A stretch of DNA of 29,369 nt from Cochliopodium minus (lineage: Eukaryota; Discosea; Himatismenida; Cochliopodiidae): contig JAMYWO010000306.1 in the NCBI GenBank assembly GCA_024220525.1, positions 1 through 29,369 on the forward strand, written 5' to 3'. The number at the start of each line of letters is the position of its first letter. Within the stretch, counting starts at the first letter, position 1. Under the pieces are notes generated by a model. That model was not told where the DNA came from. It worked only from the letters and a program-made list of their open reading frames with translations, and made no database searches. Of the stretch, positions 7,048 through 27,273 are shown in pieces. Made by a program: the position numbers and the translations under genes.

Positions 7048-8340
7048 CCAATACCCTCGAAAAGAATATACACCTCAACAAAGTGATCATTGCAGGTGAT
7101 TTCAATGAATACATGGACACAGAAAGCGACTACAAAAGACTTGACAAAAAAGTACTCAAAGAAGACACAATCTTGGAAAAAAAACCTAGAGCAAATTCTT
7201 TCAAGAAACTCATGATTGATTGTAATCTTTCTTGTGAAGAAGGACATGACTTGTATACTTTCAATCGGAATGCGGTCGGCAGCAAATAACCCAAAAGAAT
7301 TGATTGGATTCACTCCTCAAATTTCTTCAAGAATAACTCAAACAAATTCCAAGTATTGGACCCTGACTTCTCTACAGACCGCAGAGCAGTTAAGCAAGTA
7401 TTCTCTATTCTGCTTAACTCAGAGTTGGCCAAGGAGATAACCATAGAAAAGCGAATCTTTCAAATTCCTGAAAAATACTTCAATGATTCTATTTTCATTT
7501 CTAATCTAAATGAAAGACTCAATAATCAAAGAAGAAACATGGATCCTATCAAGACAAATTGCAGTATAATGATTGACAAAGCAAACGAAACTGCAAAAGA
7601 ACATAAAAGAGAAATAAAGTCAAAACTGCAAAAAAAGATGAGAAAAATTTGGAAGAAAGTTGAAAAGGTGAAAAAGGAAAAAGAGGGGAAAAAACAAAAA
7701 GTAGATCTTGAATCTTCACAAAGTTATGATTCAACTGAAACATCAGAAAATAAGGTTGACAATTTTGAAGAAGAAATGTCAGAACTGTCAAAACAAATTG
7801 ATGATGTTTTCTGGAAAGAAATTGAAGAATTAAAGTGGAAGAAAAATATTGATTTTGAAAAGATAAAAGGAGCAAACAAGATCTACTCAATGCACCTAAA
7901 GTTCAAAACTTTAATCAAATCAAAACTTGAGTATCTCCAAAGGAGGATTGCAAAAAGATGAAAGGAATGAATACTGCAAACCTTGCAAAAGAAGTGTATG
8001 TTGAAATATACTAGAACGAAATGATAGACAAGGAGTGTTTCGAAAATCTTGATCATGGTGAGAAGTTCGACTTGGAAACAAAGAAAACTTTGAACAAACT
8101 GAGAAAGAAATAAGACAAGCAATCAAGAAAACTCCAAACAAAGCACCTAGACCTTCAGGAGTGAGAATAACTCTTTTTAGAAAGTTTATTGATCACTTTG
8201 CACCAATTCTCACAAAAGTTGCAAATGAATCTCTTCTTACTGGAATTACAAGTGAATCGATGTTGAAAGGAAAAATCACTCTCATCCCAAAGAAAGAAGA
8301 CAGCAATTATGTGAAAGACCTCAGACCAATTACACTTCTC
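7048..8340 (+). mobile_element. Degenerate non-LTR retrotransposon (LINE) fragment, endonuclease to early RT
   Basis: The fragment opens inside an APE-type endonuclease: I-I-A-G-D-F-N-E-Y near 7087-7113 (the GDFN motif), K-R-I-D-W-I (the S/R-I-D-x-I motif) near 7294, and F-S-T-D-R-R-A-V near 7363-7386 in place of the usual S-D-H-R. One in-frame stop (7287-7289) lies within this part. A Lys/Glu-rich linker follows to about 7961. Then, in another frame, come P-N-K-A-P-R-P-S-G-V (usually K-S-P-G-P-D-G), L-I-P-K-K, and D-L-R-P-I-T-L-L ending at 8340, which are the first reverse-transcriptase motifs. The RT catalytic core, the 3' end and any 3' tail are absent, as is the 5' part. Clade is not resolved (L1-like or another APE lineage). 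Plain decayed LINE copy, same strand as the next gene. Confidence 0.85.
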
Positions 8341-8364
8341 AAAAAGAAAATAAAAAAAAAAAAT
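8341..8364 (+). promoter_or_regulatory. A-rich leader before the NO VEIN-like gene
   Basis: A nearly pure A tract, with 12 A at 8352-8363, abuts the ATG at 8365, as at other genes here. It starts immediately after the last recognisable LINE codon, so the LINE remnant forms the proximal upstream region of this gene. Confidence 0.5.
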
Positions 8365-11300
8365 ATGTCAAGAGATTTTGCAAAATGGCTTAATTCAAAT
8401 TTCTATATCATCTTTTCTGCGAAAGAAACCAATTCAAGAAAATTTATCAAGGAATACTACAAGGATCTTTTGACAACAATAAATGGAGACTTTATTTTTA
8501 TAGATAATAAAAAAAAGAAAGATTTGAAGGAAGGTGTTAAGTGGACAGAGTCTGAATATTATGATTGGGACAATTATAGAAATCAAATCGAAAAAATCTT
8601 TCAAGAAAGCCCACACAAAAAAGTTTTTGGATTGATCCAGATAATAGATAAAGAGATTTATGAATCCTTATTTCAACATGGAAAAATTCTAATATTTTTA
8701 TGTGAAGGAGAATTAATGATTCAATTTTGTTTGGAAAATAGATCGAACGAAGCAATCGAAGAGATACAGACAAATTATTGGGTCAACCATAGGAAATCAC
8801 TAAAGTTGTTCAAAGGGAAAAAAGTGTTGGTGGAAAATGAATTGAAAGATAAATCTTATCAAAATATTTTAAATTCTTTTTTCTCTGATAATCCCCCAAA
8901 AGATAAAGAAATCATTTTGAAAGAACTATCTTGTGATCCACTAAAACCTACATCAGCAAAGTTTATTCATTTGGATAAAAGAAATATTATACAAGCATTT
9001 CAAGAAATTCCATTAGAATCAAAAAAGGATGCTCAAATAATGGTTGAATTTCTCAATAAATTTTTTGCCATATGCACCAAAGAAACCAAAAAAGAATTGT
9101 TAAGGCAAATTATCCACTACAAATATGATAATTTGATAGTAAAATCTTTTCGCAAAGAAATAAGAGAAAAAGAATTAGAGAAAGGAATGATATTCGATTT
9201 TTATTATTGTTGCAAGAACATAATTTTGAACAAAAATTTCATTTTCAAATTTATTAAAAACTCTCAAATAGACAAACTCATAATTGAAATGATGGATTCG
9301 GATCATCCTTTCATATGGAGTCTTGGAAACAATCTTTTAAGTTATCTCCTAAACTCAAAAGATTTTATTAAATTGAGGCTGAAACAAATTCTCCCAACCC
9401 AAGATGAATGTATTGAAAATTTTTTGATGAAATCGTTTCACAAATCTTCTTCTTTCCTACTGTTCTTTACTTTCCAAAAATTAAAAAATTCTCTTCATTT
9501 ACCTCACTTCTTTTCTTCTAAAATAGAAAGAATGAAAAAAGAATTAAAGTCAGATCCTTTAAATGTTGAGTTCTTTAACGAAAAAAGATTATCTGATTTC
9601 TGGATCTTTATGAAAAAAACACCAACCAATTGCTCTTTAATTTTCAAGTATCACAACATCTTTGATATAAATAAAGTAACGAGTGAAGATATTGAAAATA
9701 TCATTGTTTATATCATTATTAGCTTACCAATTGACGAAAATCTTTCTTTTTTTTACTTTGACTTTTTGAATCTAATATTAGAAAATCATAATAATTTGCC
9801 TTCTATTCTCTCCACTCATTTTCCTTATCTTTTTAATTTAATCCTAAATACTTTTCTTAACCCACTTTATAAAAATAAAGAAAATAATTTCATTTACAAA
9901 TCTCTTCTTATCTTGTTGATTGATTTTCACAAAAATTATACAAGTAGAAACAATCTTATTGAAAAAGTTGTTGGAGAAGAATTTAATGTTGAAGATAATT
10001 ATCACAAAAATGAAGAAATAAGAGACAATAATTATCAAGAAATTCTTGATACAAATCTATTTACAAAACAAACAAATAATTTTAATCTTGATGATTTGGA
10101 AATGAAAATTTGGAAAAAAAATTTGAAAATAAAATTGAATTTAAATAATGAGACTTCTGCTCTCAATGAAGTTTTTTCACTAAAAAAAAAACTTGAATCG
10201 AATCACCAATCGCACAATCTCATCATTTCAAACTATGAATCGGAGAAGAAAAGTTTACAACAACAATTACAAGAGAAAAATGAACAAATTAAAACTTTGA
10301 AAGATAAGATCCTCCAAAAAAGTAATTTTGAAAAAAAAAAGAGGGAACATGGAAAATACTCTTTCTTTTTCTAACCCCAATGAATTAGAGAAGCAAATCA
10401 TATCAATGAAAGAAAACAAAGATGTAAATATTGATGAAATGAAATGCAAGGAATACATAGAATTGGTGAGACAATTTTGGAAGAGTTTTATTTCTTTGCA
10501 CAGAGACATTTTTTGTGAGACAACCAAAAATTTGGGAAGAATACAGTATTCTGATGCCGAGTCTTCTTTCTTAAAAGAAATTCTACAAAACATCCACGAC
10601 AGTTTCAAAGAACAAAGAAATGGAGAAATATTTATCAAAATTGATTTTGTTTCTGATGAAAACAATCCCTATCTTTTGTTTTGCAGTAATGAAGAGGGAT
10701 TTTCCCCTTCTGATGTTTTCAGTATATGCTCTATATCTTCTTCTAATAAGAAAAGAGATACTCATATTGGGCATAAAGGGATTGGTAATAGATTTTACTC
10801 TAAAATATGCAAAATAAAATAATTGGGTAAAAATTAATCAATTTTTTCTACTTTTAGGATTCAAATCAGTTTTTGTATGTACGAGCAATCCACATATAAT
10901 TAGTGGTTCTTGGTGTTTCAAATTTGAAGCTAACAACGATGACCCAATAAATTCATACATTCTTCCACATTGGGTTAGTGATCTTCCTATCGAAGTGACA
11001 AGTGACTTGAAGGTTAAATATAAAACTATTTTTTATCTTCCTTTGTTACCCAAGTTGTTGAAAGAGGAAAGTTTTATCACTGGGTTGGAATTAGTAGAAG
11101 ACCCCTCTCTTTATCTTTCTCTCTTCAAATTTGAAAAGATCATTATTGATGCTAAACTTTCTCAAAAAAAAATAATCTCAAGAAACTTTGTGAGAGAACA
11201 AAAGTTGATAGAAAACAAAAAAAGCTATTCTCTTTCTCATCTATTTTTTCAAACAGATGAGAAATTTAAAAAAGAATATTATTTCTTCTCTAAAATCGTG

Positions 11301-14300
11301 CCACTTCAATTAAATGATAATCTCCAGAAGACAAATATTACTCTTGCTTTCTCTCTTGGCGATAAAAAAGAGATTTCAAAAGAGTTTGTATACTCTGGTA
11401 AATATTTTATTTTACTTTGATTAATTTTTTCATGAGAAAATTAATAATTTTTTTTTTATAATCATATTTTTTTTTTTATATTCGGATTTAAAAATTTTTA
11501 ATAAAAATTTATTTCAAGGATTACCAATCTACAGTTTGGGATTCAAGTTTATGATTGATGCAAATTTTATTGTGACATCAAATAGAGAAAGTATCATTAA
11601 AAATGAACAGTGGAATATAGGAATAAGAGATTATTTAGTAGATTTTTTTGTTGATTTGTGTTCCAATGAACAATTTGTTAAAAATAATTTAGAGTTATTT
11701 TTTCCTGGAAAAGTTGAAAACAATTTTTGGAACATTTTCGTTCACGAAGTCAGAAAGAAAATATCTGAACAGGATGATAGAAAGTATTTCTTTTCTGGTT
11801 CTTTTGATGAAAATATTATAAATTTTGATATACTTGCCAAATTGAAAATGATTGTTGTAGAAAATGAAAATAAATCCAACGAAAATAGGCCTTTTTTTGT
11901 CAAAAAAGTTTTAACTTGTTATGATCTCTTAGTACAAATGGCGGAAAAGAACATTACCAATTTAATTTTAAATTATGAAAAGTTTTTTTCAATTTTGGAA
12001 GAAGAATATTCGGAAAGAAACGAAGAAGACAAAAGTTTGATGAAAAAATGGTTTCTGAAATCTCCCATCTTTTTATGTTCTACAGAAAACATAAGAAAGA
12101 AGATTCCCAATTATTTAATCAAAAGCAGCAAGATGTACGTTCTTTCAAGCAAAATAAAATATTGGAGAAACAGTTTTGATGATCATCCCAACTCATTGTT
12201 TTTTGATTTCTCATCCAATCCTGAAAAAAGGTTTCTTTCTAAAATCTTTGGGAAGTTATCTGCTAAAAAATTTTGCGATTTTATTTTGAATCTTCATCTT
12301 GAGAACCAAAAAAAGAAAAAGAGACTGGGGAACAAAGAACAAATATGGAAAGACCTTTTCTTTTTATGCGAAAATTTAAAACAAACAAAGGGACAAATAA
12401 AAACTATCATGGTCTTTTTACCTATCTCATTTGAAAACAATAACTTTCTTGATTCTCTTTCTAAATGTTATACTCCTTCTTTATTTGGCGTGGATTTGTT
12501 AACTGATCCCAAAAAAAAAACCATCTCTTATCCTTCAAATTTGTCTTACAAACAAAAATTAAAATTGGAAGTGTTTTTTATTAGATCTGGTGCAATGGTT
12601 CCTCCTTGTAAAAATCTTTGCTTGGAGGAAAACTTGGAGAAAAAATTTGAAGAAAAACAAAATTTTGATCTTTCTTTGGAACTAGTGAAACTCTTAAAAG
12701 GAAGATCTATTTTGTCTCAAATTTTCTTTAAAACTGAATCTGGCCAAAAAATAAAGTTAAAATCTTATTTTGCAAAAATTGAATTAGGATCTGATAATCA
12801 ATTAATTTCCCCTTCTTTCTCTGAACTTGAAGAAAAAAATGTTGTGCATGTTTTTGACTCTCTTTCTTCTTTTTGTGAAAACGAAAACAAAGATTTGAAG
12901 CAATATCTCTTGGAATTTGATAAACTCCTTTCTCCTAATTACGTAATTAATGTAAAGGAGTACAAAAAAAAAATTTTTTTAATTGAAGACAACTTTTATT
13001 CTCTGGATGATGTCATTTTTGTCAAAAACAAAGACCTTAGGAATTTTGAAGGAGAAAGAGTGGATTCGTTATGCAAATTTTTGAAAAAAATAGTAATAAG
13101 TGAAAAACAAAACGGCCAATATTACAAGTACTCCAAATTCTTTACAAAAAACATCAAATCCAATCAACTTAATTTTGAAATCCTTTTTTCTTCCTATTCT
13201 CAACTTAAAAATACATTTTCTAATAGATTATTGAATGATGAAAATCACAAGACTCTTTCAAACATTCTCAATCTTACAGAAAATATGATTAGAAATTTAT
13301 TTTACGAATCTCATAACAAAAATTTTGAAAAAATTATCGAAAAAGAAAAGATCACTGGTATGATAAATTACTCTTTTAGAAATGAATTGGGTCGTTCACT
13401 TTTCGAAGAGGCAAACTTTCAAAGTTTAAAAGAAAAATTGAAAAAAGAAATCATCTTCCCTTCTCAAAATGGAAAAATAATCGATTTTCCCTTTCACAAT
13501 TTTTTAGCAAACTCTTGCCATTATTTTGAACAAAAATCAGTGTATGAATTTGTGGAGTCGGAGATAGTTGACAGTTGTCCTTTTTTGCTTGCTTTGTTGA
13601 ATATAGAGTATTATGAAATGAATTGCAATATAAATTTTAAACTCCATCTTTCTCAACAACCAAAAAAAGAAATAGTATTGACAGAAATCTTCAAAAAGTA
13701 CTTGTCAGAAGAAAATTTGATTGTTGTTAGCTTGTCTCTTTTGAATATTTCTTTTGATCTTTCTTTCAAAGATACATCTCAAAAAATTATTGATGGAGAT
13801 ATAGAATATGTTAGAATTAAAGATCATATTTTCATAAATATTGGCCACATTCCAGAGGAATACAAAGTAGATCGAAATGAAAGGATAAGGAGGGTTTTGG
13901 CTTCTCTAATTCAACAAAAAAATGAGATTTCTCCAATAGAGACCCGAACTCTCCAAATTTTTGAAGAAATAAACTACCAAGAGAGAAAAGATGATTTATA
14001 TAATTTCAACTTTCCCACTGAATACACTTTCAATGAAATTTCTTTTCCTAACAAAACTTTTCTCAGAGAATTCTCTTCTTCTAACAAAAAACATAAAAAA
14101 AAGGTTAATATTTTTTATCTTGATAAATTAAAAACGAAAGGAGAACAAATTGACTATAAGATAACTCCCAGATTGGAAAATCAATACTTTCAGAGCAACA
14201 ACTCCATTCCAAACAAAAACATAGGCTCAAGAGCAGAAATCATATTTTATTTTTCTTTGTTGAAATACTACAACCAAGAAATAAAGTGGGTAAGCTCTAT

Positions 14301-14949
14301 TTCTACATCTTTCTTAAAAAATCGAGAAGTGAATGATGGGGCTGGATATGATTTTGAATTGAATGATCATAGATTTATATTTCTGAAAGATAATCAACTT
14401 CAAAACACTCAATGTTTCTTCGAGGTAAAGGGATGCACTGGTAAATGGGATGGTTCTTTTTTTATGTCTCAAAATGAGTACAATGTTGCAAAAAATAATG
14501 AGAATTACTTTATCATTGTTTTTGAAAATGTAGAAAATGATGAAATGATTAATCTTTCGACCATCATCAGATTTAATGAATGTTGTGTTTTTTTAGATTC
14601 TTACCAAAATGGTGTGGCCTGGGGAAATCCAAAAAGTAATTTCAAGATGCTTTTTTCACCAAAATCCTATGAAGTACATTTTCAAACCAACGAGAAATTC
14701 TCCTCACAATACCAAAAATCAGATCAGAGCTATCACAATTCAAAGTACACTTCGAACTACAAAATTTTTGATAGAAATAAAGATTATAACAGTAGATCTC
14801 TGAACAATAAGGTCAGAAATTGGGATAATTTTAAAGATCCAAATTTCCTGAAAAATAATGATAAAAAAGATATTGACAAAACCAACAACAGAGACCATAT
14901 AAATAAAAAAGATAACGAAAGGAGAAGATTTAAAAACAAAGAAAATTGA
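8365..14949 (+). CDS. NO VEIN-type protein: GHKL ATPase fold plus NOV_C (DUF3883), one frame break
   Basis: The start is ATG 8365 (M-S-R-D-F-A-K-W-L) after the A-rich leader; the frame is open upstream only through LINE sequence. Exons are 8365-10784, 10858-11397 and 11519-14949, with GT-AG introns of 73 and 121 nt. Within exon 1 the frame changes at ten A (10331-10340); one fewer A would make it continuous, so this is probably a sequencing indel, though a real lesion or two genes is possible. The first 655 residues are helical, unrecognised, and end in a coiled coil (Q-Q-Q-L-Q-E-K-N-E-Q). A Bergerat ATPase follows: N-box E-I-L-Q-N-I-H-D (10577-10600), N-E-E-G-F-S (from 10688) and, across intron 1, I-G-H-K-G-I-G-F-K-S-V-F. 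Then I-L-P-H-W-V and, across intron 2, the ...G-F-K-F-M-I-D-A-N-F...S-N-R-E-S strand typical of NO VEIN/sacsin-like proteins. NOV_C lies near 14220-14580 with G-Y-D and F-E-V-K-G. The tail is basic and Asn-rich. Total about 2,130 residues. Confidence 0.85.
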
Positions 14950-17373: not shown

Positions 17374-20300
17374 ATGCAAAAATTGGAAAAGACAAGGGGA
17401 ATAAATCCCTTCACCAGAACTCTACCTGTATTGTTTGAGACATTGGTTAATTATCTTGAAAAAGAGGGTAAAATTTATAAATGATGTGCAATAAATGTAT
17501 GGTTTAAATAATGAGTGAATTTTAATTTGCATTTTAAATATATTTAGCAATTGAGAAACCTGGGCTATTTATACAAAAATTGAATCCCAAAGAAATTAAT
17601 CAATTAAAAAGTCACATTTTGGAAACTGGTTTAAATGCAGAGCTCAAAAATGTTACTTATCAAGCTGCAGAGATTTTGAAACAATATTTAAGTACCCTTC
17701 CTTCTCCAGTATTGACATTTGAATTTCATGATGTGGTTGCTTATTGTTTGGGTAATAAAAACTGAATTAAAAATTTCTTAAAATACTTGTTAATCTTTAA
17801 ATTTATTTATTATTGATCCTATTTGTTCTTCTTTGATCTTTTTATTGTTTGATCTTTTTAATTAATTTTAAATTTGATTTGTTAAATATATTTTTAATTT
17901 TTGATAAATCTTCAATTCCTCAAATGGATTTATCACCCAATCCAATTTAAAACTTGAATATCAAGAAAAAGGAATGAACATCAAAAATAAAAACAAAAAA
18001 AAGGATGTTTATAATAAATTATACTGAAATAATCATCCAACATAAATTGATCCGAAATTAGATCTTATCTTGAAATATAAAAATTGATCCAAACTATATC
18101 GAGCAATTCAATCAAAATTGTAAAAATGATCGTTTAATATTAAACAACAATACAATTGATAATTTGGATCACCATTGATGGGATCTTTGTAATGCAAAAA
18201 ATTTTATATTATAATTTAATTTTAATTTAATTTAAAAATTCAAAAAAAAAAAATTTTAAGAATAACAATAATAATTTAATTAATTTTAATAATAATTTTT
18301 AATTGAATTGATTTTAATAATATTTATATTTTTATTTTATAAAAAAAAAAAAGGAAAGAGTGGAGAAATACAAACAGAAATGTTGAGAAGAGTGATTCAT
18401 TCACTTCCACAAGGAAACAAATTGTTTTTGGTGAGATTAACAAAGTATTTGGTGTTATTGAAAAATGCATCAAAAGGAAATCAAATAGAAATAAACACTT
18501 TACAAGATGTTTTTGCAAAATCTATTTTTTCTCAACAAAATCAATCTTCTTCCTCCTCCCCTTCTTCTCTCTCTATCTCCTTTTTCAAAATTCTCCTTCA
18601 ATCTTATTCCCTCATCTTCAAGGTTTTTCCCCCTATTTTTTCTTTTTTTTTTTTTTTAATTTTATAATTTATTTACATTTATTTATATTTATTTACATTT
18701 ATTTATATTTATTTATATTTATTTATATTTATTTATATTTATTATATATTTATTTACATTTATTTATATTTATTTATATTTATTTATATTTATTTATATT
18801 TATTTATTTATTTGTATTTATTTATATTTATTTATATTTATTTATATTTATTTATATTTATTATATATTTATTTATATTTATTTATATTTATTTATATTT
18901 ATTTATATTTATTTGTATTTATTTATATTTATTATATTATTTATATTTATTTATATTTATTTATATTTATTTATATTTATTTGTATATTATATATTTATT
19001 TACATTTATTTATATTTATTTATATTTATTTATATTTATTGTATTTATTATATATTTATTTACATTTATATTTATTTATATTTATTTATATTTATTTATA
19101 TTTATATTTATTTACATTTATTTATTTATTTTATTTATATTTATTTATATTTATTTATATTTATTTATATTATTTATTATATTTATTTATATTTATTTAT
19201 ATTTATTTGTTATATTTTTATATTTATTTATATTTATTTATATTATTTATTTATTTATTTTTATACATTTATTTATATTTATTTATATTTATTTATATTT
19301 ATTTTATTATTTCATTTATTTTGGAATAATTTTTTTTTTTGATTATTTATTCATTTTTCTTGAATTTTTATGAAATTGAATATTTTATTAAACATTATTA
19401 TTTTATTTTTTTTATAATGTATTTTTTGTTTATTTTTATATTTATTTTTATATTTTTATTTTATTTTCATTTATATTTTTATTTTTATATTTTTATTTTT
19501 ATATTTATATTTTATTTTTATATTTTATTTTATATAATTATTTTTTTATTTTATTTTACATTTTATTTATTTGTTATTGGATGAATTGTAGAAAATAGGA
19601 GATGTGAATGAGGTGAAGATAGAGGATAGCGGGTTTACAGAAAAGTTAAAGGGAGCAAGTAATAATTTGGCAAATGCAATATTAAATCAATGTTTGGTAC
19701 AAGAACAAGTGACGAGATCAAGTAGAAATTCAGTGAAAGGATGGGATGACGTTTTTGGAATGTTAGAAGAAAATGATAACGAAGATGAAAAAAAACAAGA
19801 CAAATTTTACACTGAAAGTACTGACCTTGGCAAACTCATCTTCTCTGGCAAACTCGTACCTCCTTTTTTTTATTTTAAATTTTTAATTTATTTTTATTAT
19901 TTTTTAATTATATTTTATTTTTTAATTTATTTTTAATTTATTTTTAATTTATTTTTAATTTATTTTTAATTTATTTTTAATTTATTTTTAATTTATTTTT
20001 TAATTTTATTTTATTTATTTTATTTTTTAATTTTATTTTATTTATTTTTATTAAGCTCTTTAATTATTTCTTTTATTCAAATCATTTATATTTTCTTTTA
20101 AATTATTATTAATAAACTTTTAAAAGGATGAAGCTAAACAATACGTGGAGGAAGTAATATCAAAGAAAAACAAAAAGGGAATAGAAAACATTTTAGATGA
20201 AGATGGTGTTTACACTGGTGATTATTCCAACAGTAAACCTCACGGAAAAGGTCCCTTTTTTTAAAAAAATTATTCATTTTATTCAATTTATTTATATTAT

Positions 20301-21070
20301 ATTTTATTTCATATTATATTCATTTTATTATATTTTATTCAATTTATTTATATTTTATTTTATTCAATATATTATTCATTTTATTATATTTTATTATTTT
20401 TATTTTATTATTTTATTATATTTTATTTTATTTTATTTATTATATTTATTTTATTTTATTTATTATATCTTTTTTTCTTTTATTATTTTAATTTATTTCA
20501 TTTCATTTTATTAAATAAAAAAGGAGTGTTCAAATTTAAAAATGGAGACGTGTACACAGGAGAATTTGTAGAAGGGAGAAGAGAGGGGAATGGAAAATTG
20601 GTGTTGAATGATGCTTCTGTTTATGTTGGTCAATTCAAAAATGGTAAACCTCATGGTAACGGAAAATTTGACTATTCCAATGGTGACAGTTATGAAGGAG
20701 AATTTGAAAATGATAATTACCATGGAAAAGGTTTTTTTATTTCAAAAAAATTTTTTTTTACTTAATATTTTTTTTTTATTATTCAATAGGAGTTTACTTA
20801 TCACCATCCAACGGTACAAAGTATGAAGGACAATTTCACGAGGGAATGAGACATGGAAAAGGAAAGTTTAAAACAAAAAGAGGGCACATCTATTATGGTC
20901 AATACGAAAATGATCAGATGAGTGGTGTTGGTATTTACAGTTATGCCAATGGTGATACTTATAAAGGTGAATTTTCTAATGGTAAATTCAATGGAAAAGG
21001 TATTTACTCATTTGCCAACAACAGCCAAAAGATGGAGGGTGTTTTTAAAGATGGAAAATTTGTTGGTTAA
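17374..21070 (+). CDS. RhoGAP-MORN protein, seven exons, arginine finger absent
   Basis: Exons are 17374-17467, 17548-17751, 18354-18622, 19592-19855, 20127-20250, 20524-20730 and 20790-21070, summing to 1,443 nt and 480 residues. Residues about 14-175 form a RhoGAP domain: L-P-V-L-F-E-T-L-V-N-Y-L, P-G-L-F-I-Q-K-L, L-K-Q-Y-L-S-T-L-P-S-P-V-L, then L-R-R-V-I-H-S-L-P-Q-G-N-K-L and the I-N-T-L-Q-D-V-F-A-K-S-I helix. The catalytic Arg of the usual G-I-F-R motif is Ile40, so GTPase stimulation may be lost. An acidic linker (190-277) leads to seven or eight MORN repeats (about 300-480), such as Y-T-G-E-F-V-E-G-R-R-E-G-N-G-K and Y-E-G-E-F-E-N-D-N-Y-H-G-K-G. MORN arrays bind membranes or scaffold proteins. 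Four introns are 271-969 nt and filled with AT repeats, unlike other genes here. The gene converges with the RhoGEF gene, 144 bp apart. Confidence 0.87.
17752..18353 (+). other. 602-nt intron of the RhoGAP-MORN gene
   Basis: AT-rich sequence between GTAATA and a run of twelve A ending in AG. It splits the RhoGAP domain after its first half. A short GATCTTTTTA-type motif recurs (17836, 17861 region). No open frame or RNA gene is evident. Confidence 0.6.
18664..19320. repeat. About 650 bp of ATTTATTTAT satellite within an intron
   Basis: A 10-bp unit ATTTATTTAT is repeated some 60 times with T-to-C and T-to-G variants and occasional shortened units. It fills most of the 969-nt intron (18623-19591). 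Because the unit contains no TAA, TAG or TGA in any plus-strand frame, long spurious reading frames arise in all three frames. These are rejected as genes. Confidence 0.9.
19924..20000. repeat. 11-bp repeat (AATTTATTTTT)n within an intron
   Basis: Seven head-to-tail copies lie in the intron 19856-20126 of the RhoGAP-MORN gene. The following intron (20251-20523) is a looser mix of TTTTATT units. The unit differs from that of the neighbouring long intron, so each intron has expanded a different AT unit. Confidence 0.75.
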
Positions 21071-21214: not shown

Positions 21215-24200
21215 TCATTCAAAATCTTCCAAAAGAATGTTTGAATTTTGAGAAATTATGTTTTCGAGAGAAGATTGAAGTTCACTCAAAAGTTGTTTGA
21301 GAGTGTTTTCTTCAATCATTTCTTCATTATGAAAATCAACCTTCTTTTTGGTGATGGGATCAAGAATATCTTCTTTACTATTTTTTGATCTGAATGGGAT
21401 GTTTTTGGATATCTCTGCTTTCTTTTGGAAGTTGATTAATAAAGTAAACAATTGTTTGGATTTGATTTCAATCAAAGGGACGATCTGGATGCCTTGTTGT
21501 TGAATAAAGAGGTGAAGAGGTTTGAGGTTTTTGTAGAGATTAAACGGATTGGTTTGTAAAATTTCAAAATTAAAGAGAGCTTGTTCTGTTTTTTGCCAGA
21601 GATTGAGAGAGTTTTCAGATCCTTTTTTTCTAAACAAGAGAAGAATAGAGAGACGTTGGTTAGAATCAGAGATAAAACTAAGAAGAGATTCGTGAGTTTC
21701 GTTCATAAGCTTTTCTATTTTCGTTTTCTCTGCAGTCATTTGTTGATACTCACTAGAAGATTTGAAGCTAGAATAGCACTCTTTCATTTGTTTTTCCACT
21801 TCTGTTTGAGATTTATTGAAAATATTTTGATAAGAAACAACAAAGATGCTTTGTTCTTTTTTAGACTGGGCATTTTCTTCGAAAACATCAAACAACTCTT
21901 CATAATTTTCTTTACAAAGAAAGATTCTTCCAGAAGGAAGATGGACAGAAAAGTATTTTTGAAAGATTTTTTTGGCAGTTTTTTTGGCAACTTTGATTCC
22001 TCGGACTGACTTTAATTGTTCACTTTCTTCCCAAAATTCGTACAAGTTTATTTTGGAGATGTTTTTGAGGTAATTGGAGAAATAGTGAAAAGTTCTGGAT
22101 TTTTGTTTGAGAAGATGAAGGTTAAACTCTTCGCCACTTTCCTCTCCACTTTGGAGTTCACTTCTTTTGAATATTTTGTTGAAAGCGTCTTTGTTGTGAA
22201 AGTCAATCCCCTCTGACTTTCTTCCCATTGTCCCAGTCAACGTGCCACTCATCGCCAACAAGCCGGATTCTTTAGAAGTAGAGGGGGAAAGAGGGGGAGT
22301 GTTGGAATTTTTATTGTTTAAAAAAAGCTGAAAAAGATGAGGTTGGACATTCCGTATTTTACTTCCATTGTTGTTATTGTTAATATTATTATTGTTATTA
22401 TTGTTATTATTGTTATTGTTGTTATTATTGTTATTATTGTTTCCACTGTTGTTTTTACCTTGAATGAGAGATTGAGAAAAGAGGAATTGGTTGTCATGTT
22501 GTTTGGAGAGAGGTTCAAGTTTGTTCAAATCAGACAAACTTCCGATACTTCTCCTGTTTTGCCTTTGTTGTTGCATTTTTGCTTTGTAGTTGGTTTTGGT
22601 ATGCGAAGTGTTTCCATTGGTGGCACTGGAGGTGTTAGCGGTGTGGTCGTTGCTTTTGTAATCAGTAATGTTGCTGGTGTGTTTGTCTTTGTTATTAAAA
22701 TCAGTGATACCTTTCACACGCACAGTGCTCATTGTTAAATTTCTTCTTTTAGGAGAATCTATGAAAAAGTCAAGGTTATTACCATTATTATTATTACCAT
22801 TGTTATTACTATTATTACTATTACTATTACTATTATTATTATTATTGTTATTATTATTATTATCAAACTTTTTATTGTTAGTATGAAAGCTATTGTCACT
22901 ACAATTTAGATTATTTTCTACATTTCCTCCTTTTTTCTCATCACCAGTGCTGTTATTGGAGAGGGGACCAGAAGAGGAGACAGAAAAGTTGCTGTTTCTT
23001 CTCCCCAAATTACTCCAGACATTCAAAAACTCCTCCCCTTCTTTCTCTATCCTCGTTCCTCCTCTACGAGGTGAAATCGTTATTTTCGGTTTTGTCTTCA
23101 GGGTAATGCCATTACCACTGTTACTGTTACTGTTACTTTCACTGTGACTATTGTTGTTGTTGATGTTAGAGTTTTCAGTAGAGTTGTAGAGGGGACTTTT
23201 TTCAATGTTTTTGTTGTTGTTGCTGGTGTTGTTGATCATGTGCTCATTATTGGAGAGGAGGATTTCATCGTGAACGGAGAAAGGATTTTCATCAGAGAAA
23301 TTGAGTTGGATCTGATCAAAAATGTTGTTACTTCCATTTTCTTCATCATTCATGTTGAAAGAGGGAGGGAAGAAAAGATTGTTGCTGTTTCTGTCTATGT
23401 TGCTGCTGCTCCTATCTATCGTACTGTTGTTGACATTTGACCCTCCACTGTTTCCAGTATAAGAAAGAATAGGATTAAAATGATTAGAATTGTTATTAAA
23501 GGGATTAGGATGAAGAAGATTGGAAGGATTAGAAGAAGGATGATTAAGAATCACAAAATTTCCGCTGTTTCTATCAGTGCTTCTTTTTTCATTCTTGCTT
23601 TCGAAGTGATCAGAGAGGGGAGAGGAAGTGGTGGGAGAGGATTTGGGAGAATTGTTGTTGGAATTTGAAAAAGATTTTCTTATGGGCCTTCCACCACTTT
23701 TATTGGAATGGTTGGGTTCAATGGATTCATTGTTGACCAAAAGATGAAGGGGATTTCCTTTCGAAAGAGATCCCTTTGGAGAAAAAGAAAGAGAGGAAGA
23801 GAGTGGAGAATGAGGAGAATGAGGAGAGTGGGGAGAATGAGGAGAATGAGGAGAATCTATGTTGGTAGAAGAGGAGGAAGATTTGTGATCATCTTCAAAG
23901 AAATGGAAGAATTCAGGGAGAGAAAAGATTTGAGGGAGATTGAGGAGAGCTTCAAAGTAAAGGGTGAGTTGTGGAGAAAAATCTTCTTGTTTTCCCCCCA
24001 AAAACAACTTACGGATGGAAATGAATGCTTTTTTGGAAAAGGGGAGGATGGGGAGAACAGCCTGATCGTAAATCGTTTTGAGACTTTCGTGAAAAAAAGC
24101 AATTTGTTCAGTAGATTTAAGAACCGAGATGGTCTGATCAAACTTGGTAATCTTTATCTGATAAGCGACCTCTTCCACACCTTTTTTGTTTTTGATTATT

Positions 24201-27200
24201 TTGCTATTTATGATGATCTTGGTTTTTTCGGTGGTTTTTCTTTTGCTGTTTTGGATGGACTGCTGTTTGAGGGTCTCCCAATCGAAAATGGCCTTTTGAA
24301 ACTTTTGAAGTGCATCCAAACACTTTTCTGCGCTTTCAAATTTGAAGGAATAGTTGCTTCCATCACTCTTTGAATTTTTCAACATAAAGGAGGTCTCTTC
24401 TTTTTCACTTTTTAATACTTCCGCTTTTTCTTCAAGAGGAGGAGGAGACAACCATCTCACCAATTCTACCATCTCCAATCCTTCATTCATACCTCCACTG
24501 GTGCTCCCATTAAAGTTGTTCGTACTCAACATTCCGTTACTGTTGTTGTTGACATCGTTGTTGAAAGGAACTGTAATCAACAAACCATCGTTAAAAAGAA
24601 ATACTATCCCCTTTTTTGTGTCCACCTTGTTTCCTTTCACTCCGATGCTATACTCTTCTATCAACTTTCTCCCCTCTTTTTTTTTTTGTAAAATTTTTAA
24701 AAAAAATAAATTGTAAAAACATAAAAATTTATTAAAATACCTTTAATGATAGAAGGAGGTTTGATGGGAATTTCACAATTTGGACAAACTTTAACGTGAC
24801 AATGAGTATGACACATAAATGAACAAGACAAACACTTGTAAGCATTTCCTACCGAATTAAAAAAATGATTGAAAAAAAATATTTAAAATGATAAAATAAA
24901 AATGAAAAAATAAAACTTACCTTGTTTGATGACTTCCAAACAAAAGTTACAAGTGGAGATTTTGTTGAAAAGGAAAAGTTTGAACTGATGAGGTTTTCCT
25001 TCAATGTATTCGTGAAGATCGGAGATATTTCCCTTCGTGTTCAAAATTTCAGAAATTTCACCCAACCTTTTCAAACCAATGATGTCATTTTTAGTTTTAT
25101 CAATGCACACTGTCACATCCGTTACTGCCACCAATGCTTTGTTCAAGTTTTCATAGTCCGTGTGCTCTTTCTCTGTGTACTTTAATATTTGTTGAAGAAG
25201 CAACACATATCTAGGAATCTATTTAATTAAATTAATTAAAAATTTTTTAATAATTAAACATTTATATTAAATTTTCAAATTATACATATGATTTATTCTT
25301 TTATTTAAAATAAAAAGGTTACTCTTTGAATGGGAGTGATTCTGAGTGTCTTTATTGCGAAAACTCCTTTTTGGGAAGCACTCTTGGAAACTTTTTGGAT
25401 TTGAATGTTGTTGAGGATTTTGAAAAAGGAAGGATTCTTCAAAAGAGTGTTCAAAAGATTTGTTGAATCATCATATCTATTCACATATTCCATGTACAAT
25501 TTGAAATATGGGGTCATTTGAGCCACTATTGCTCCTATATAATATAAATAATCATTTAATTTAAAGAAAAAGTTTAAAATTGAAGAGATATGATAATAAT
25601 GGATAGTATATTTTTTTACCAATTAGAGGATCTTCCTTTCTTGATTTTGTTTGTTTATCGAAAAGAGCGCTTTCAAGATCAGAGAGCAAATTTTTATGGA
25701 GCATACGCAATACCTTGATGTTCAAGAAAATTCCATTGAGCTGATTATCAGTAATCACATTTTCTTTTTTGATTGAATCATAAAAATGTTGGATATCATC
25801 CAATTGGGAAACATAACTTTTCTCTGTATCCAATAATTCTTCAATAAGCTTTATTCTTTTCTCTTTTTTACTCAATTCCTTCCCTTCGCCTTCTTTCTTT
25901 TCCTTCACTTCTTCCATTATTTCCACAGTTTTTTCTTGAATTTTTAATTCCTTATTATTCTCATTCTCTACTATAATCTCTTCAATTTTCTTATTTTCTT
26001 CAATAACTTTTTCTTCTTCCCAATTCTCTTGTTTATTCTCGATTATATTCTCTTCTATTCTTTCATTCTCCACAATTATCTTTTTCTCCTCTTCATTATT
26101 CTCTTTATTTTTCTCTAATGTATTCTCTCCATCATTCTTATTCTCTTCTTCCTTATTCTCTTCATTTTCTTTAATCTCTTTTTCATTTTCTATACTTTTT
26201 TTCTCATCTATATTCTTTTCCTCTTTATTTTCTTTCTCTTTTTGATTATTCTCTTTTTCGATATTGTTATTAATAGTTTTATTCACTTTATTTTGAGATG
26301 GGGATGAATTGACTTGATCTAATTTCTCAATGTTGCCATCATTTTTATTGCCATTAAGATAGGGAAGATTGTAAATGAAATTTTTATCTCCTATTTCCTC
26401 TTTTTGTATTTCATCACTAGAAATATCCAAGCTTGATTCTGTAGTATCAGTGTTGGTTCTTTTGAGCTTTCCATTACTATTTTTGACTTTTACTATTCTC
26501 TTTTTCTTTTTGAGCTTTCTTTTTATTTTTTTCTTTGCTGGGTTCTTCCCATCTTCTTTGTTGGTTGAATTCTTTATTTCTTTGGTATATGATTCCTGGA
26601 TAGAACCATCTGATGTATTGATAGAATTTTCATCTTGATCTAAATCTTGTGAACTATTGATTCCAAAATCGTTGTTTTCTGATGTATTGAGATCTTTATT
26701 TGATGAATCAAGATCTTTGTTTGATGAATCGAGATCTTTATTTGATGAATTTTGTTCTGTTGATTTTAAAGCTATATCTGATGGATCTAGAAAATCACCA
26801 TTCATAGGTTTCTCCAATTTATCTGAAGAGGAATTATTTTCTTCAATGTTTTCTTGTTTTGTACTGGAATCTCGTTCTAATTTTAGAGACTCCTTATTAA
26901 AGGAAATAGGCCCATTATAAGGAGCAACATAATTTGAAGGGAATTTCCCCAAAGTCATCTCGTTATTTTCACTTGTATTTGTGCACAAATAACCTCTATA
27001 TATTCAATAATTACTTTCTAATATAAATTACTTATTTTAATCTCACCTCCACCAACCCGTTTTTTTTCTCTCTGCCAATTTAATTATATCACCTTTTTTG
27101 ATATCCAAATAACCAATTTTTTTGTCGATTTCAGGTGTAAAATCATATAAAACCAAATAATAGTTGTTCCCATTTAAATTTATTGCTTCTGGTTTTTTCA

Positions 27201-27273
27201 ATTCACTCTTCTTCCTTGGCTTTTTAACTGTTGTTTGAGATCTTGTTAATTTCTTTGGAGGAGTGTTATCCAT
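21215..27273 (-). CDS. Multidomain RhoGEF: SH3-DH-C1-PH-PX-RGS
   Basis: Six exons, 27273-27047, 26995-25620, 25534-25323, 25218-24921, 24848-24741 and 24675-21215, sum to 5,682 nt and 1,893 residues. SH3 (37-101): L-Y-D-F, G-W-W-R-G-Y spanning intron 1, G-K-F-P-S-N-Y-V. A Glu/Lys/Asn linker follows to 450. DH/RhoGEF (about 452-675): L-D-T-E-K-S-Y-V-S-Q-L, then I-T-P-I-Q-R-I-P-R-Y-V-L-L-L across an intron. C1 zinc finger (682-729) has every ligand in place: H-x12-C-x2-C-x11-C-x2-C-x4-H-x2-C-x7-C. PH (about 741-874): F-L-F-N-D-G-L-L, with an Asn-rich insertion. PX (about 891-1002): Y-Q-I-K-I, L-P-I-L-P-F. An Asn/Ser-rich region follows. RGS (about 1600-1715): L-Y-E-F-W-E-E, K-K-I-F-Q-K-Y-F. The expected role is Rho-family nucleotide exchange at membranes with diacylglycerol, phosphoinositide and G-alpha inputs. 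The order is unusual. Each domain call is strong except RGS, which is good. Confidence 0.9.
22368..22441. repeat. Trinucleotide repeat coding poly-Asn
   Basis: ATT/GTT repeats on the plus strand encode a run of more than 20 Asn in the disordered region of the RhoGEF, upstream of its RGS domain. Confidence 0.85.
22777..22863. repeat. Second trinucleotide repeat coding poly-Asn/Ser
   Basis: ATT/ACT repeats on the plus strand encode Asn and Ser runs in the same disordered region. Such codon-period repeats are typical of dictyostelid and other AT-rich amoeba coding DNA. Confidence 0.85.
23802..23856. repeat. 9-bp coding repeat (Ser-Pro-His)n
   Basis: About five to six copies of GGAGAATGA on the plus strand encode Ser-Pro-His repeats just after the PX domain of the RhoGEF. 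Confidence 0.8.
26689..26751. repeat. 21-bp coding repeat (S-S-N-K-D-L-D)x3
   Basis: Three copies with exact 21-bp spacing (GATC at 26691, 26712 and 26733) encode the S-S-N-K-D-L-D heptapeptide in the linker between SH3 and DH domains. Near-identity suggests recent duplication. Confidence 0.85.

Follow-up and report, generated by a model that had tools for sequence, protein, structure and literature searches.

A predicted Rho exchange factor of Cochliopodium minus with PX and RGS domains behind its DH-C1-PH unit

The stretch of DNA investigated here (the window) comprises the 29,369 nucleotides of contig JAMYWO010000306.1 from the amoeba Cochliopodium minus (assembly GCA_024220525.1), which is contig C303 of the 598 contigs and 44.65 Mb that were searched as its AT-rich genome. 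Its minus strand harbors a gene of six exons, joined across five GT-AG introns into a single frame of 1893 amino acids that starts with an ATG at 27273 and terminates with a TGA at 21215. The introns are 51, 85, 104, 72 and 65 nucleotides long with a pooled G+C content of 12%, and exon 6 stays open over 3458 nucleotides, for which the probability by chance is about 1e-35 given its base composition. In the product, the domains follow each other in the order SH3-DH-C1-PH-PX-RGS and are succeeded by a C-terminal stretch (Table 1). An earlier interpretation, made from the letters of the window alone and here termed the sequence-only reading, had placed six domains in one spliced frame at 21215..27273. 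These coordinates coincide with the coding span to the base, and the arrangement in one frame was borne out by the joining of the exons, by Pfam searches and by a second gene located on contig C76. As far as the DNA shows, the locus is one protein-coding gene and its architecture is real.

Profile searches with Pfam were carried out on the spliced 1893-residue product, with curated cut-offs applied. A match to RhoGEF (E = 2e-37) covers profile positions 2-179 of 180 and identifies a DH domain of the Dbl family, with related sequences in the PDB originating from ARHGEF4 (4.3e-16), collybistin (9.3e-16) and Vav (1.3e-15). Also above their cut-offs are RGS (E = 7.2e-7, 30.0 bits compared to 23.9, residues 1595-1720), which assigns this region to the family and was recovered in a six-frame search of the genome itself at 1.2e-7, and SH3_2 (E = 4.3e-5, 23.6 bits compared to 21.8, residues 38-101). 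Conversely, the match to C1_1 stays below its cut-off (E = 1.3e-4, 22.2 bits compared to 26.5), as does the one to PX, and PH is not matched. The Pfam examination of the six-exon product, which had been proposed together with the sequence-only reading, thus supports RhoGEF, RGS and SH3 directly and leaves C1, PX and PH to other evidence. That reading had also been made dependent on significant RGS and PX profile matches, of which RGS passes, whereas PX with an E-value of 0.033 does not. In the C1 domain, all eight zinc-ligand positions, two His and six Cys, can be read from the sequence in the pattern H-X12-C-X2-C-X11-C-X2-C-X4-H-X2-C-X7-C. Since the middle spacing of C1 domains is usually 13-14, its short length of 11 makes diacylglycerol binding by this domain doubtful.

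In protein searches of the same genome, one other locus contains PX, RGS and the C-terminal stretch together. This gene, which is found on the minus strand of contig C76 from position 104104 and has diverged from the one in the window, was modelled with eleven exons and ten GT-AG introns encoding 1045 residues, with the very end undefined. Its product displays the same order of SH3-DH-C1-PH-PX-RGS with the shared C-terminal stretch and matches RhoGEF (2.8e-35), RGS (2.7e-9, 37.9 bits), C1_1 (1.5e-8, 34.8 bits) and SH3_2 (2.1e-8, 34.2 bits) above the Pfam cut-offs. The sequence identity between the two proteins amounts to 43% for RGS with the C-terminal stretch, 50% for PX and 43% for PH, and three of the five introns in the window (after the residues PIQR, inside C1 and before PH) are found at the same codon and in the same phase in C76. 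The PX and RGS matches of the second gene are only 47 residues apart, without the asparagine-rich linker that separates them in the window. We regard the recurrence of the order in this gene as the strongest evidence that the order read in the window is real.

The 3' half of the C76 gene is present twice, in a noisy copy at 101.7-99.7 kb and a clean copy at 122.9-120.3 kb that adjoins a 27-kb run of N. An alignment of both copies over 2069 columns shows 90% identity, and because the 168 gaps far exceed the 38 mismatches we take them as one locus that was read twice. The duplication (99.7-101.7 kb and 120.3-122.9 kb; L027, L029) is thus probably an assembly artefact. When the noisy copy alone was searched with the window protein by tblastn, pieces of SH3, DH, C1, PH, PX and RGS were found in this order, with a weak RGS piece (24 residues, E = 0.064). 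An apparent open frame of 9523 residues at the same locus was rejected as a giant protein, as it consists mostly of the run of N (C76:122928-150110).

The second gene also bears on the question whether the locus in the window might harbor two transcripts, one for an SH3-DH-C1 protein (exons 1-5) and one for a PX-RGS protein (exon 6), which were joined only by our reading. Given its length, exon 6 might conceivably give rise to a transcript of its own. However, the PH stretch at its start is the one that is found behind DH in RhoGEFs, its first in-frame ATG lies downstream of the initial conserved strands of PH and the junction of exons 5 and 6 is common to the C76 gene in position and phase, with the same domain order there. 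Given another gene that repeats this order and has introns in common with the window, we consider two fused transcripts exceedingly unlikely.

Table 1. Features of the window, with coordinates given in window positions.
Feature	Position	Strand	Remarks
Exon 1	27047..27273	-	start codon and first part of SH3; followed by GT-AG intron 26996-27046
Exon 2	25620..26995	-	end of SH3, 351-residue linker between SH3 and DH (rich in E/K/N), first part of DH
Exon 3	25323..25534	-	middle of DH; 3' splice junction PIQR/IPRY, phase 0, common to C76 gene
Exon 4	24921..25218	-	end of DH and first half of C1; 3' junction, phase 1, common to C76 gene
Exon 5	24741..24848	-	second half of C1; 3' junction, phase 1, common to C76 gene
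Exon 6	21215..24675	-	PH, PX, low-complexity linker, RGS, C-terminal stretch, stop codon
SH3 domain, residues 36-102	26917..27168	-	split by intron 1; Pfam SH3_2
DH (RhoGEF) domain, residues 460-644	25102..25845	-	split by two introns; Pfam RhoGEF
C1 domain, residues 682-730	24772..24990	-	between DH and PH; Pfam C1_1 below cut-off
PH-type domain, residues 741-876	24269..24675	-	contains N/G/S-rich insert; profile matches to C453 and C142
PX domain, residues 892-1003	23888..24223	-	Pfam PX below cut-off; relative on C453 passes
Low-complexity linker, about 587-590 residues	22127..23887	-	N/S-rich, between PX and RGS; largely missing in C76 gene
RGS domain, residues 1591-1720	21737..22126	-	Pfam RGS above cut-off; three usual Gα-contact positions lost
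C-terminal stretch, residues 1721-1893 (173 residues)	21218..21736	-	aligns with C76 gene to about residue 1810; no Pfam match
MORN-repeat protein	20560-21067	+	convergent with 3' end of RhoGEF gene; Pfam MORN 1.9e-19 and 5.1e-20, two open frames
1174-codon open frame	11425-14946	+	NO VEIN C-terminal domain, NOV_C 3.3e-9

The genome contains a large collection of related domains. Six-frame searches identified 34 matches to RGS (E up to 0.001), 41 to PX (E up to 1), at least 164 to RhoGEF (E up to 0.01, with the best 150 of 235 candidates scored), 19 to C1 and 107 to SH3_2 (both E up to 0.1), numbers which count exons apart and best candidates only and are thus not gene counts. In 14 prokaryotic genomes that were searched as controls, no match exceeded any cut-off; at the same E-values, C1 was matched in 5, SH3 in 2 and Gα in 1 of the 14, and RGS, PX and RhoGEF in none. 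Besides the window, a DH domain with a PX domain close downstream on the same strand was found by eye, among the matches listed, on C26, C82, C142, C194 and C453, with the order DH-C1-PX on C142 and C194 and possibly on C113. No RGS domain was found behind PX on C26, C82, C142 and C194, where the contig C194 ends soon after PX.

Some of these relatives lend support to the PH and PX domains of the two proteins. A PH profile built from window and C76 matches the stretch in the equivalent position of the C453 gene (10.2-13.2 kb), whose DH (5.8e-40) and PX domains (7.1e-5, 23.7 bits) both exceed the Pfam cut-offs, at 1.6e-8, and the PH domain of C142, which itself passes Pfam SOS1_NGEF_PH at 1.2e-6, at 8.9e-6. 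Similarly, the C453 PX matches the two-gene PX profile at 2.3e-9. The gene in the window reads as a shuffle within the large RhoGEF set of this genome, and its probable origin is a broader local group of DH-(C1)-PH-PX exchange factors. A different organization is found on the minus strand of C213 (9.3-12.5 kb; L033), where an RGS domain (8.5e-15) upstream of DH indicates a candidate for an RGS-first RhoGEF. By eye, an IQ-like stretch is recognized between RGS and DH and a PH-like stretch behind, in a locus for which no gene model was built.

We compared the residues of the RGS domains at the positions of Asn88, Asn128 and Arg167 of RGS4, which we take to be the usual Gα contacts, in an alignment of window, C76, RGS4 and eight further RGS domains, the best of the 34 matches in the genome. 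At Asn88, both proteins have Leu. At Asn128, we find Phe in the window and Ile in C76, compared to Asn in seven of the eight others and Asp in the remaining one. At Arg167, the respective residues are Ser and Asp, compared to Arg in five of the six others that cover the position and Lys in one. The RGS domain of C213 retains two of the three positions, with the third not covered. The PX domains are altered as well. The (K/R)R(Y/H) motif of PX domains has a role in phosphoinositide binding. In its place, the window has KST and C76 has RSC, whereas the motif is kept in four of the five other DH-linked PX domains (C26, C82, C142 and C194). The proposal of the sequence-only reading that the protein would couple membrane lipids, Gα and Rho in one chain is thus not supported as it was stated: with the RGS contact positions and the PX motif lost in both genes, a plain lipid- and Gα-coupled switch goes beyond the evidence.

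The loss of the usual key residues in PX and RGS, together with the low-complexity insert of about 587 residues between them, might alternatively suggest a tail that has lost its function and is decaying on an otherwise ordinary DH-C1-PH exchange factor. We consider this very unlikely, in light of exon 6, which contains PH and the whole tail, being open over its full 3458 nucleotides and of a tail that is conserved between the genes about as well as PH (43% and 50% compared to 43%), including the stretch after RGS for which no family was matched.

The order of the domains differs from that of known proteins that combine some of them. In the metazoan RGS-RhoGEFs p115-RhoGEF, LARG and PDZ-RhoGEF, which share with the window gene an RGS-type domain and a DH-PH unit, the RGS-like domain is located N-terminal to DH-PH, and RGS also precedes DH-PH in the proteins of Entamoeba and Naegleria. 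In the window, RGS (1595-1720) and DH (460-644) are likewise part of one chain, but RGS is C-terminal and follows PX. The claim that this order departs from the familiar RGS-first RhoGEFs therefore held, and the latter order is also seen on C213 of the same genome.

Entamoeba histolytica (EhRGS-RhoGEF) and Naegleria fowleri (Nf RGS-RhoGEF) provide the closest parallels, being amoeboid protists in which a single protein unites RGS and DH-PH, and both proteins are reported to bind activated Gα (PMC3499586, PMC9283941). The single RGS-RhoGEF of N. fowleri is described to contain a canonical RGS domain, DH-PH and putative leucine-rich repeats in its N-terminal part, in an account that mentions neither SH3 nor C1, which are both present in the window gene (PMC9283941). 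A SMART search of 2012 is reported to have located RGS with DH-PH only in metazoans and amoebozoans (PMC3499586).

By analogy to these proteins, the RGS domain in the window could be a working Gα-binding domain, where active Gα would bind RGS and turn on exchange by DH. Such a mechanism would be in accordance with RGS matches above the Pfam cut-off in both genes, with the reported binding of activated Gα by the Entamoeba and Naegleria proteins (PMC3499586, PMC9283941) and with the abundance of Gα in the genome, where 78 matches, counted exon by exon and with the weaker ones mostly below the family cut-off, imply that a G-protein partner is available. We still consider it unlikely, as neither gene retains any of the three contact positions, whereas most of the eight other RGS domains compared keep them where covered, and two are present in the RGS-first candidate C213. 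For the Naegleria and Entamoeba proteins, a canonical interface is described, which, judged by sequence, is found neither in the window nor in the C76 RGS domain. Three of the Gα matches are arranged in tandem at C5:226867-230626.

PX and RGS domains are also combined in the sorting nexins SNX13, SNX14 and SNX25, for which the order PXA-RGS-PX-PXC after transmembrane helices is described (PMC7956473). In the window gene, PX precedes RGS and a RhoGEF unit is located in front. No match to PXA or Nexin_C (PXC) was obtained for its product with Pfam at E-values of up to 10, where the filters of HMMER drop most very weak matches. The predicted distinction from nexins of the SNX13 type, with RGS before PX, is thus confirmed by the described order (PMC7956473). 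In comparisons of a two-gene RGS profile with PDB sequences, 19 of the 20 rows with E-values up to 5 are RGS-type chains, with axin among them, and two SNX25 RGS chains are the best matches (0.002 and 0.0046), followed by RGS4 at 0.033. The PX-RGS cassette might thus descend from a nexin of this kind and target the exchange factor to endosomes or the endoplasmic reticulum, with an RGS domain that would bind its partner without acting as GTPase-activating protein (GAP), as reported for SNX14 and Gαs (PMC7956473). The vicinity of PX and RGS and the SNX25 matches would be consistent with such an origin, which we nevertheless regard as quite unlikely in view of the inverted order, the failure to match PXA or PXC, a lead of SNX25 over RGS4 of only about 4 bits and the other DH-PX genes of the genome, which suggest that PX joined DH without RGS.

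The combination of DH, PH, C1 and SH3 in one protein resembles RhoGEFs of the Vav type, where the order is DH-PH-C1 with SH3 behind; in the window, C1 separates DH from PH, and SH3 is found at the N-terminal side. In Entamoeba EhFP4, a RhoGEF is described to be fused to a domain of the phosphoinositide-binding type, which is FYVE instead of PX (PMC13327543), and in a survey from 2010, RhoGEF and PX are reported to be found together only rarely (PMC2837644). Among the literature matches listed, no paper with a DH-PX-RGS protein as its subject was recognized by title or the start of its abstract, from which we do not claim that such proteins are unreported. Relatives of the gene were not found in one scan of viral contigs.

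Taken together, we favour, with moderate confidence, a Rho-family exchange factor that carries a non-canonical PX-RGS tail for docking or regulation. The strong and full-length match of DH suggests that this domain would load GTP on a Rho or Rac GTPase, and the DH core most likely works. The C1 domain between DH and PH may serve as a structural clamp similar to Vav rather than as a sensor of diacylglycerol, and SH3 with the charged linker might dock partners or hold the enzyme off. The tail would be a regulatory docking unit that is devoid of the usual residues for lipid binding and Gα contacts and most likely operates by a non-canonical surface. In the weakest step of the proposed mechanism, it would bind a G protein, a receptor or a membrane partner via this other surface and thereby place or release the exchange factor at its partner. 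The many Gα matches of the genome imply that a G protein is available for this purpose. Gα may still be bound despite the loss of the usual residues, as binding of Gαs without GAP activity is reported for the SNX14 RGS domain (PMC7956473).

Several observations weigh against the favoured interpretation of a docking tail behind PH. The PH domain of the window product is not matched by Pfam despite the resemblance of residues 741-876 to PH, and its PX match remains at 15.2 bits (E = 0.033, residues 922-1002) compared to a cut-off of 21.6, with PX of the C76 gene even further below (0.44, 11.6 bits). Both assignments in the window are thus inferred from relatives in the same genome. The PH counterpart in C76 scores below the Pfam cut-off (0.0026), and the C453 stretch shows a weak PH-type match only (0.023). 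When compared to PDB sequences, the window PX alone gives nothing significant (three unrelated rows), the PX pair of both genes retrieves PX in three of 12 rows, with the best at 0.067 behind an unrelated one at 0.03, and the PH pair retrieves a single unrelated row without significance. The window RGS alone is similarly not significant, with SNX25 at 0.088 behind an unrelated match at 0.071. Single-sequence AlphaFold models are useless, with a mean predicted local distance difference test (pLDDT) score of 36.0 for PH and PX and of 38.2 for RGS and the C-terminus; the order of strands and helices in the former would fit PH and PX, but we give it no weight. The C76 model combines its 5' half from the first copy with its 3' half from the second copy beside the 27-kb run of N. 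With respect to the altered residues, the position of Asn88 is variable in the other RGS domains of the genome (Asn in four of the seven that cover it and Glu, Lys and Gly in three), and the PX domain of C453, although passing Pfam, contains KNF and thus also lacks the basic-aromatic motif. Finally, an RGS domain was considered behind the PX of C453 and rejected: the stretch looks helical and is partly alike, with 20% of residues identical to the window protein when an alignment is forced, but is unsupported by Pfam and profile comparison.

As a more far-reaching and tentative proposal, which we consider possible but doubtful, the gene could represent a second type of Rho exchange factor with a link to G proteins, built independently of RGS-first RhoGEFs. 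Its C-terminal PX-RGS cassette, with a reworked RGS surface and the conserved extension, would sense a Gα or a receptor complex at a membrane and control the DH-C1-PH core from behind, with the kinds represented by C213 and by C303 and C76 residing in one genome. If the tail works, the coupling of heterotrimeric G proteins to Rho would have been wired more than once, with RGS placed before or behind the same core. A single genome would thus permit comparison of C213, with RGS in front and two residues kept, of the genes in the window and on C76, with RGS behind and the residues lost, and of DH-PX genes where RGS was not detected. The case also serves as a warning that domain names alone do not establish binding of Gα or lipids.

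Elsewhere in the window, the forward strand at 7290-8400 reads by eye like a broken non-long-terminal-repeat reverse transcriptase running into another frame, with no reverse transcriptase match in Pfam for either 7290-7958 or 8062-10371. The region 18660-19370 of the same strand forms a long T/A-rich stretch of low complexity, where all three forward frames are open and the G+C content drops to 12-15%.

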